NCBI GenBank assembly: GCA_025354605.1
Contig: JANXMN010000236.1
Coordinates: forward strand, 1-51,853
Reading direction: 5' to 3'
Length of the DNA: 51,853 nucleotides
Source of the DNA: Hymenobacter sp.
GTDB taxonomy: Bacteria > Bacteroidota > Bacteroidia > Cytophagales > Hymenobacteraceae
Shown here: piece by piece, positions 22,880-27,363 of the stretch
Position numbering within the stretch: the stretch's first letter is position 1
Layout: each line of letters opens with the position of its first letter
Position numbers and translations under genes: made by a program
The notes under the pieces: model-generated
What the model saw: only the letters and a program-made list of their open reading frames with translations
Told to the model about the DNA's origin: nothing
Databases searched by the model: none

Positions 22880-22962
22880 GCGGGAAACAACGGGTGGGAC
22901 GGCAAAGTACGGCCGCCCCCGCCGGCTTTGCGTACCTACCGGCTCCGCCCAGCTTTGTTCCG

Positions 22963-23511
22963 ATGCCCGACGCTGCCCCTGCCCCGCTCATTCTCACCCT
23001 CGCCCTCGACAACGCGGCCCAGACATATTTCGACGCCCTGCGCCGCCGGCACTTCCCGCCGCGCCTCAACTACCTGGCGGCCCACCTCACCCTGTTTCAT
23101 CACCTGCCCGGAACTGAATTTGAAGCCGTGCGCGCCCGGCTGGCGGCCCTGGCCAGCGCCCGGCGGCCGCTGCCGCTGCGCGTAACGGGCCTGCGCTCGC
23201 TGGGTCGCGGCGTCGCCTTCACCCTCGAAAGCGCCGCGCTGCGGGCCCTGCACCGGGAGCTGCAGGCCGGGTTTGCCCCCCACCTCACGCCGCAGGACCG
23301 GCAACCGCTACAGCCCCACGTCACCATTCAGAATAAAGTAGAGCCCGAAACTGCCCGGCAGCTGCTACTGGAGCTGCAAGCCGATTTCGCGCCGTTCGGG
23401 GCCGTGGGCACAGGCCTGCACCTGTGGGCCTACCAGGGCGGCCCCTGGGAAAGCCTGGCCGAGCTCGGCTTCCATAACGACAATATTCCCATAGCTGGGC
23501 CGGGCGGTTGA
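22963..23511 (+). CDS. 2'-5' RNA ligase / 2H phosphoesterase family protein
   Basis: Two HxT motifs: LAAHLTLFHHL and QPHVTIQNKV. Confidence 0.82.
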   Translation: MPDAAPAPLILTLALDNAAQTYFDALRRRHFPPRLNYLAAHLTLFHHLPGTEFEAVRARLAALASARRPLPLRVTGLRSLGRGVAFTLESAALRALHRELQAGFAPHLTPQDRQPLQPHVTIQNKVEPETARQLLLELQADFAPFGAVGTGLHLWAYQGGPWESLAELGFHNDNIPIAGPGG

Positions 23512-25834: not shown

Positions 25835-26593
25835 TTATTCCCCCAGCAAATCTTGCACAAACTGCATGTAAGCCTCCCGCACGGGCAGCTCCAAGTCAGT
25901 CACTAGTTCCCGGCGCGTGGTTGTGGTGGCTTGCTGCGTCACCGGGTTGAAGCCTTCGCGCTCCACGTCTTGCCAGTACACGCCCAAGCCCCGGCGCTGC
26001 CAAGCCGGCAGGTTGTTGAAATTGATTCCGCGCTGAAACAGCAGCTCATTTTTGTCAGCCGTGCTCAGCCCACGAATATGGTTTGTAGCCCCAACTTCAG
26101 TGGCACCTTCGCCGCGCAGTAGCCAGTAGCAGTGTGCGTTCAGCGCATTGCGCAGGGCATCTTCGGCTCGCCAGCGGAAGTAGTCAACCACATCGCCGGA
26201 CCGGGGTAGTTGGGCGATACGACAGTCGAACACGCCCATATCGCCGAGTAGCAGGGAGAATTTGGCCGAAGCTTCACCCGCCAGAATGCTGTGGTACTTG
26301 CGCAGCTTGCGGCCGAAGGTATTTGCGTCAGTATCGAAAAGCAGCGAAATCTCGTCGCTCTGGGCGTAGCCGTAGCGCACCGGAAACCCGCTTTGCAGCA
26401 GGTGGCGCACGGTGCCCGCCATACAGTCACGAAACCGTTCGTCGAAGGGCCGCGCGAAGTCGTGCGTTTCCTTGGTAAGGCGGGTAAAGTTGCGGCCGTC
26501 GAGCCGGGCCACCAGGTAAAGACCGGGCAGGGCACAGTGGTCGTGGGCCGTTTCGAAAACCCGCAGGCGCGAGTCGAGGTCGTCAAATTTCAT
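25835..26593 (-). CDS. Thg1-like protein (tRNAHis guanylyltransferase / 3'-5' polymerase family)
   Basis: VARLDGRNFTRLTKETHDFARPFDERFRDCM, VRYGYAQSDEISLLFDTDANTFGRKLRKYHSILAG, NELLFQRGINFNNLPAWQRRG. Confidence 0.88.
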   Translation of the reverse strand: MKFDDLDSRLRVFETAHDHCALPGLYLVARLDGRNFTRLTKETHDFARPFDERFRDCMAGTVRHLLQSGFPVRYGYAQSDEISLLFDTDANTFGRKLRKYHSILAGEASAKFSLLLGDMGVFDCRIAQLPRSGDVVDYFRWRAEDALRNALNAHCYWLLRGEGATEVGATNHIRGLSTADKNELLFQRGINFNNLPAWQRRGLGVYWQDVEREGFNPVTQQATTTTRRELVTDLELPVREAYMQFVQDLLGE

Positions 26594-27033
26594 ACTTGCC
26601 AGGGTTCGACCACAAACTGACCGTGGTCGTCGATGCGCACAAAGTAAAGCTCATCGAACCCTTCCTCGTAGCAGGGCAGTTTCAAGCGGGCGCGGGTACC
26701 CCTAATTCCCCGCTCGGGCACTTGCTCGGCCGGCGGACGGAGCTGGTTGCGCAGAAGCGCCGCCTCGGCTGCTGAGTTAAAATAGTAGCCTACCACGGCA
26801 TATCCGGCGGCTTTGGCCGGCCCCAGGTAGCGGGCGCGCTCGGCAACCGTGGGGTTGGTGTTGTCGACGACGAACCGGGCTTGAGTGGTGAGGCAAAACT
26901 GAAGAAGCAGCGCCTCACGGTGGCGGGTACGCAGCAAATCGAGGCTGATGCGCACGTGTGAGTTGAGCAGGCGCTGGCAGTAGTACGTGCTTTTGCCAGT
27001 GGCCTGAATCCCGCAAAAAATAATAGCCTGCAT
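26590..27033 (-). CDS. P-loop polynucleotide kinase-like NTPase
   Basis: MQAIIFCGIQATGKSTYY Walker A; VVDNTNPTVAERARYL motif typical of PNK-type kinases; ATGA overlap with Thg1-like gene. Confidence 0.85.
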   Translation of the reverse strand: MQAIIFCGIQATGKSTYYCQRLLNSHVRISLDLLRTRHREALLLQFCLTTQARFVVDNTNPTVAERARYLGPAKAAGYAVVGYYFNSAAEAALLRNQLRPPAEQVPERGIRGTRARLKLPCYEEGFDELYFVRIDDHGQFVVEPWQV

Positions 27034-27102
27034 GAGGGGCTGAAAGAAAAGTGAGCCGGCAAAATTGAGCCGGCAAAATTGAGTCAACGGCCCAAAAGCG
27101 GC

Positions 27103-27363
27103 CTAGCTGCCCCACTCCGGCAGCTGTACCCGCGCCAGGTACTCGCCCAGCCCGGCCGGCTTCTGGAACACGTGGATGAACAGCACGGCCTCTTCGCCTC
27201 GGCTGCGCCAGGTTTCGGCAAAAAAGCCCTCCACGGCATATAGCGCCAGGTCGAAGCTGTCCTCGGCTCGCTCGGCCAGGCGAGTGCCGTGCCGGGCCAG
27301 GTAGTCGAGCTGGCGGCGCTGGTGCAGGGCTTTGAAGGCGGTGATGGTCAACTCCTTTAACAT
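27103..27363 (-). CDS. Hypothetical protein (86 aa)
   Basis: MLKELTITAFKALHQRRQLDYLARHGTRLAERAEDSFDLALYAVEGFFAETW; same strand, 70 bp upstream of the kinase gene. Confidence 0.65.
   Translation of the reverse strand: MLKELTITAFKALHQRRQLDYLARHGTRLAERAEDSFDLALYAVEGFFAETWRSRGEEAVLFIHVFQKPAGLGEYLARVQLPEWGS

Follow-up and report, generated by a model that had tools for sequence, protein, structure and literature searches.

A conserved polynucleotide kinase and Thg1-like gene pair in Hymenobacter as a candidate RNA 5'-end repair module

The window analysed here, 51,853 nucleotides long, is an entire contig of a Hymenobacter-group genome (G000). At positions 25835-27033 it carries a pair of genes on the minus strand, a kinase gene followed by a gene for a Thg1-like protein (TLP; Table 1). 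The two open reading frames, their motifs and the ATGA junction reported by the first-pass annotation are all exact in the sequence, with GIQATGKST and VVDNTNPT in the kinase frame and ARLDGRNFTRL and GYAQSDEISLLF in the Thg1 frame. The same annotation read the junction as a sign of translational coupling, which the overlap of stop and start codons, conserved among relatives, does suggest. A hairpin with a GCCGGC stem of six G-C pairs and a T-rich tail, one of six terminator-like sites found against a shuffle mean of 3.0 per region, hints weakly that the pair may form its own transcription unit.

Table 1. Features at and near the kinase-Thg1 locus, in window coordinates
Feature	Coordinates	Strand	Details
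PNK-type P-loop kinase (predicted), single domain	26590..27033	-	ATG at 27033, TGA ending at 26590; 147 aa
Thg1-like protein (TLP), predicted 3'-5' RNA polymerase	25835..26593	-	ATG at 26593, stop ending at 25835; 252 aa
ATGA overlap of kinase stop and Thg1 start, 4 nt	26590..26593	-	Read from the sequence
Terminator-like hairpin just upstream of the kinase ATG	27055..27074	-	Consensus scan only
2H phosphoesterase gene	22894..23511	+	2_5_RNA_ligase2, 3.1e-26
ORF of 86 aa directly upstream of the kinase	27103..27363	-	No Pfam match

The pair is flanked in the window by genes for an alpha/beta hydrolase, a DcuC carrier and an imidazolonepropionase, and the window contains neither a structured RNA with an Rfam match nor a tRNA gene. 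Two further genes nearby deserve mention. One, on the other strand and some 2.3 kb away from Thg1, encodes a 2H phosphoesterase, and homologues of it lie within a few kilobases of the pair at other loci (L025, L041/L003 and L021); enzymes of this type can process 2',3'-cyclic phosphate ends, and a tie to the pair is faintly suggested. The 86-residue ORF upstream of the kinase is kept near the pair, at 68-77% identity, in the four nearest Hymenobacter loci (L022-L025).

The kinase is predicted to be a PNK-type polynucleotide kinase. It matches the Pfam family AAA_33 (1.1e-11), and when its single sequence is searched against the PDB, mammalian PNKP (2.2e-9) is the sole match with E below 0.1; a profile built from 45 homologues matches PNKP at 6.5e-20 and also recovers bacterial Pnkp and T4 PNK. 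The AlphaFold model (pLDDT 95.8) finds PNKP first in a Foldseek search of the PDB (1yj5, E 9.6e-13, TM 0.85), and PNKP fills the top eight matches (TM 0.78-0.85). By sequence and fold alike, PNKP leads the ranking, bacterial Pnkp and fungal kinases follow, and small-molecule kinases come behind them. The P-loop, of the form GxxxxGK[ST], is GIQATGKST at residues 8-16, with G8, G13 and K14 invariant across the 45 homologues, as are D32, D57, N58, T59, N96 and R99. Other sites include R35, the run D57-N58-T59-N60 and the pair R95/R99, of which R95 is nearly invariant in the same set. In the alignment with mouse PNKP, D32 matches the Asp of 'NRDTLGS', and we take it to be the catalytic Asp at the position known from PNKP and T4 Pnk; R95 and R99 are presumably the lid arginines.

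The second protein is, by profile, fold model and active-site residues, a member of the Thg1/TLP superfamily (PF04446 and PF14413). It scores 98 bits against Thg1 (PF04446, 5.3e-28; cut-off 29.2) and 55.1 bits against Thg1C (PF14413, 1.1e-14; cut-off 26.3), and by the Pfam scores the family assignments of both proteins are far beyond chance and the frames are not chance ORFs. Its sequence finds 5axk first in the PDB (3.7e-30), among matches to archaeal-type TLP and to human, bacterial and yeast Thg1/TLP entries that include 3otb and 4kgk; a profile of 66 homologues matches BtTLP at 5e-63; and the AlphaFold model (pLDDT 94.5) again returns the TLP/Thg1 structure 5axk first in Foldseek (E 4e-21). 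The residues D32, D80 and E81 align with the metal triad D30, D75 and E76 of BtTLP, whose metal- and nucleotide-binding residues have been described (PMC3701042). In the model D32 lies close to where strand 26-34 ends, and D80-E81 occupy the turn between strands 72-78 and 81-86. These catalytic residues are invariant in the 66 aligned homologues. The protein also keeps R30, S79, K99 and R125, aligned to metal- or nucleotide-binding residues of BtTLP, and the DxR motif of the Thg1 family (PMC2904730) appears at the start of strand 4 as D123-C124-R125, with D and R invariant in the 66 sequences. The first-pass annotation had proposed structure prediction as a check and had named loss of the catalytic aspartates as grounds for abandoning its reading; both the PNKP fold and the Thg1/TLP fold are predicted confidently, and the catalytic residues are complete, D32, D80 and E81 all being present.

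It had likewise proposed a neighbourhood survey, and the pair proves to be conserved far past close relatives. The 80 closest Thg1 relatives, picked from 85,462 species by similarity to the query, share 60-81% identity and come from Bacteroidota, Cyanobacteriota, Planctomycetota, Chloroflexota, Bacillota, Pseudomonadota, Acidobacteriota, Lentisphaerota and Myxococcota. In about 70 of these, a kinase gene lies directly upstream in the same orientation; for about ten of the 80, a kinase is absent nearby. Because these relatives were selected for similarity to the query, we further examined 396 evenly sampled Bacteroidota, in which Thg1 occurs in five genomes, four of them with an adjoining kinase, and strong kinase matches occur in four, the same four genomes, each with Thg1 adjacent. 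Within the genus, 17 of the 61 genomes examined carry Thg1 (one copy is degenerate), and every intact Thg1 locus of the PNK-linked clade in the genus and order has the kinase directly upstream. The module is thus dispensable and patchy in its distribution.

Where the pair occurs, its junction is strikingly constrained. Among the 73 pairs with an alignable start, 72 overlap by 4 nt (9 pairs), 11 nt (57) or 14 nt (6). Pairwise distances among the kinases and among the Thg1 proteins are correlated (r=0.78 over 70 pairs; the maximum of 999 permutations was 0.12), and as shared species history adds to this value, it supports co-inheritance of the two genes and not contact between their products. 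Two of the Thg1 genes that have no kinase are found in other settings: one from Cyclobacteriaceae (L031) overlaps the start of a gene for a type I restriction methylase (HsdM), and one from Anaerolineae (L081) is followed by two genes of the RlaP nucleotidyltransferase family, assigned by clustering with those of two planctomycete loci (L036 and L048).

The converse situation is also found in nature. Three genomes of the genus (G026, G056 and G059; loci L217, L218 and L219) have an intact kinase and no Thg1, and in a fourth (G054, L220) the Thg1 next to the kinase is degenerate, having lost catalytic residues, with Asn in place of the first metal-binding Asp. No convincing Thg1 remnant was found beside the orphan kinases of G026 and G056, and in G059 there is only a short MKFDELDS-like start straight after the kinase (E 6.2). 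Thg1 seems to have been lost first, and the kinase may hold value on its own. That the kinase can persist alone is one of several points in favour of a different reading, in which its substrate is a small molecule or DNA and the two proteins share some other role. The breadth of the AAA_33 family also fits this reading, as do weaker matches to Sep-tRNA kinase and further P-loop kinases and the fact that the kinase's PNKP relatives in mammals work on DNA. However, PNKP, bacterial Pnkp and fungal kinases outrank small-molecule kinases, and the conserved overlap is with an RNA-specific polymerase whose gene keeps company with Hen1, Pnkp and RlaP. We therefore regard this reading as unlikely.

That company is seen in other phyla. 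In seven cyanobacterial loci (L029, L042, L043, L065, L070, L078 and L099) the order is Hen1-kinase-Thg1-Pnkp, the last of about 870 residues, with an additional ORF call between Hen1 and the kinase in L042; in L050 and L052 Hen1 lies upstream and Pnkp is not visible, the contig of L052 stopping there. In two Planctomycetes (L036 and L048) two RlaP-type nucleotidyltransferases come first, giving the order RlaP-RlaP-PNK-Thg1-Pnkp. Representatives of these neighbours were typed by Pfam, the others being assigned by sequence clustering: Hen1_L (PF12623) matches at 8e-115, RlaP (PF10127) at 2e-56 and 4e-45, and PNKP_ligase (PF16542) at 5.5e-180 and 6.5e-185 in Pnkp proteins that also carry kinase and phosphatase domains. 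Judged by these matches, the Hen1, Pnkp and RlaP runs tie the pair to ligase-based RNA repair. No paper describing Hen1, Pnkp and Thg1 together was found in the literature searched, a set outside which Burroughs and Aravind 2016 (NAR) falls, and we make no claim that the extended Hen1/RlaP operons are new. Three Calothrix loci (L034, L045 and L051) have a different neighbour, a conserved ORF of about 300 residues directly upstream that ends 7 nt before the kinase start; it has no Pfam match (L034 tested) and is a possible further component of the module.

The first-pass annotation remarked that no ligase is coupled to the pair. This holds at the present locus, as neither Pnkp nor Hen1 adjoins the pair in the window, but it does not hold in some other phyla, where Pnkp follows the pair directly. 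The genome itself encodes a full-length Pnkp (945 aa, contig C311), Hen1 (C270), two RlaP genes (C366) and RtcB homologues (C275, C542 and C86). Of the two options offered earlier, cooperation with a distant ligase or action on 5'-truncated RNA only, the former is the likelier, because the Pnkp and RtcB ligases sit on other contigs of the same genome. Within the genus, the presence of Pnkp, Hen1 or RtcB is not significantly associated with that of Thg1 (Fisher p 0.11, 0.08 and 0.39), while RlaP accompanies Thg1 in 16 of 16 genomes and is found in 31 of 45 without it (Fisher p 0.007, a raw value from four tests that ignores kinship). As a separate matter, the N-terminal sequence of Pnkp is found at the end of C270 (L216) and again in full on C311 (L212), and a second, small C-terminal fragment lies at C311:3994-4176; these duplicate pieces may reflect contig overlap, strain mixture (contamination of G000 is 5.75%) or partial duplication.

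Taken with the conservation of the pair and its intact catalytic residues, the adjoining RNA-repair genes elsewhere make RNA 5'-end repair the best reading, as first proposed from the sequence, and we put the probability that the two genes form such a module, the kinase acting first and the Thg1-like enzyme second, at roughly 0.7. The kinase would use an NTP to place a phosphate on the 5'-OH of a tRNA or similar RNA, an end of the kind that a metal-independent ribonuclease would leave. By analogy with characterised TLPs, the second enzyme would activate this 5'-phosphate using either ATP or GTP, the latter being perhaps the likelier in the PNK-linked clade, and would then restore missing 5' nucleotides singly in the 3'-to-5' direction, templated by the complementary strand of the acceptor stem. 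Breaks that need sealing would be passed on to a ligase from another locus, which in this genome would be Pnkp/Hen1 or RtcB, or to the Pnkp encoded downstream in some phyla. Characterised bacterial and archaeal TLPs favour repair of 5'-truncated tRNA, with their in vivo substrates unsettled (PMC6471195). The association with Hen1 and Pnkp provides an indirect link to toxin-cleaved tRNA. No enzymatic test of a PNK-linked TLP or of the kinase-Thg1 pair was found in the literature searched.

The founding role of eukaryotic Thg1 (PMC6471195), and membership of the same family, would instead suggest tRNA-His maturation, with the TLP adding G-1 and the kinase as an accessory. We rejected G-1 addition as the reason for Thg1 here. 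The genome's own tRNA-His gene reads g-GTAGATA...TATTTAC-C, which on our numbering of the sequence encodes G at -1 opposite C73, so addition of G-1 is not needed and the housekeeping role would be redundant. Moreover, most genomes of the genus lack Thg1, and RNase P products already have a 5'-phosphate and thus no need of a kinase. This explanation is highly improbable.

Could the pair be chiefly a cassette for conflict with phage, spread by mobile elements and undoing the cleavage of host or phage tRNA? Its patchy spread across phyla at 60-66% protein identity, the occurrence of the linked genes on viral contigs (L102 and L107), the known part of Hen1 and Pnkp in ribotoxin repair (PMC4411300) and discussion of a jumbo-phage Thg1 in terms of RNA repair (PMC7824862) all speak for this. 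Against it, neither protein matches a PADLOC defence model, the flanking genes of the window are metabolic or transport genes apart from the 2H phosphoesterase, and most viral TLPs have no kinase, many of them falling in a separate clade. As the chief role we consider it very unlikely, and it overlaps with RNA 5'-end repair without excluding it. A defence island at the locus was considered separately and rejected, there being no PADLOC match and the flanks being metabolic and transport genes.

How the 5'-phosphate is activated may differ between branches of the family. K43 of BtTLP (yeast K44) touches ATP during the activation step, and the authors of that work regarded this role as likely universal; a K43A change slowed adenylylation about ten-fold and left guanylylation virtually unchanged (PMC3701042). 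The window TLP has R48 at this position, so the lysine is not present, and the alignment there is secure, since the neighbouring P49 is invariant in the 66-sequence alignment. Because K43A spares guanylylation, the lysine, though common in the Thg1/TLP superfamily, is better seen as a variant site than as a criterion of membership. Across 88 PNK-linked TLPs the position is Ala in 69, Arg in 8, Lys in 5, Ser in 4, Thr in 1 and Val in 1, whereas 93 unlinked, mainly viral TLPs have mostly Arg or Lys. The unlinked, distantly related proteins form a separate, well-supported clade in the tree, and cellular members of the PNK clade that are unlinked mostly have Ala too; loss of the lysine is therefore a trait of the clade and not a direct effect of linkage. 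The Arg of the window protein could still contact ATP, and for PNK-linked TLPs as a group the pattern suggests GTP-based activation.

The activation step also bears on the possibility that the main work of the TLP is to furnish the kinase product with a 5'-App or 5'-Gpp, as an activated ligation donor, marker or cap, and not to add missing nucleotides. A 5'-App route to RNA ligation was raised by Anantharaman et al. 2010 (PMC2904730), and a Pnkp with a ligase domain does lie directly downstream of the pair in some lineages. Yet R30, K99 and R125 are retained in almost all sequences, and they correspond to R28, K99 and R131 of BtTLP, which bind the incoming NTP for nucleotidyl transfer. Pnkp brings an adenylyltransferase domain of its own, which would make a separate activator superfluous, and most members of the PNK-linked clade have a residue other than lysine at the site that assists adenylylation. 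Such a role is improbable. A more specific form of the 5'-end repair reading is that the PNK-linked clade has given up ATP-dependent 5'-adenylylation, that GTP primes reverse polymerization on kinase-made ends and that the pair is the 5'-nucleotide-restoring arm of a Hen1/Pnkp/RlaP tRNA repair network. Here Thg1 would supply 5' nucleotides, RlaP would supply other lost nucleotides before ligation, Pnkp would seal and Hen1 would protect the joint. We offer this version tentatively.

Several known systems share features with the pair. The idea of a kinase followed by a polymerase is not new, having been put forward in 2010 on the basis of this gene association: Anantharaman, Iyer and Aravind identified PNK as the most persistent bacterial association of Thg1 and predicted that the kinase supplies the 5'-phosphate that Thg1 requires, a prediction only (PMC2904730). 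The same two families are adjacent across lineages here; among the neighbourhoods of that paper, a subset includes RNA ligase or MACRO genes, whereas the present locus is the pair alone with neither adjoining. BtTLP (PDB 4kgk/4kgm; PMC3701042) shares with the window TLP the fold, metal triad, activation serine and triphosphate-binding residues at 23-26% identity in structural alignments, and differs at K43, where the window protein has R48 and most PNK-linked members have Ala. The nearest solved structures by fold are archaeal and other TLPs and human THG1 (5axk, 3otc and 7cv1; 28-31% identity), the human enzyme adding to tRNA-His a G-1 that is genome-encoded here. Phage TLPs (29-36% identity) fall outside the PNK-linked clade in a tree that does not include BtTLP. 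The Pnkp/Hen1 system acts on broken RNA ends and its PNK kinase domain belongs to the same broad family; it adjoins the pair in cyanobacteria and Planctomycetes and is encoded elsewhere in this genome. In contrast, phosphatase, ligase and methyltransferase parts are all absent from the present pair, and its kinase is a lone domain closer to mammalian PNKP than to bacterial Pnkp.

To the 2010 idea our analysis adds the longer operons with Hen1, RlaP and Pnkp, the presence of Pnkp, Hen1, RlaP and RtcB elsewhere in this genome, the encoded G-1 of tRNA-His, the orphan kinases found in nature and the prediction about the activation site. Synthesis of RNA in the 3'-to-5' direction is rare, and Thg1-like proteins belong to the small group of enzymes capable of it. 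A compact, conserved pair in a cultivable genus that also includes natural strains with the kinase and no Thg1 makes the 2010 prediction directly testable, and the Hen1-PNK-Thg1-Pnkp arrangements point to a class of substrate, tRNA broken by ribotoxins.
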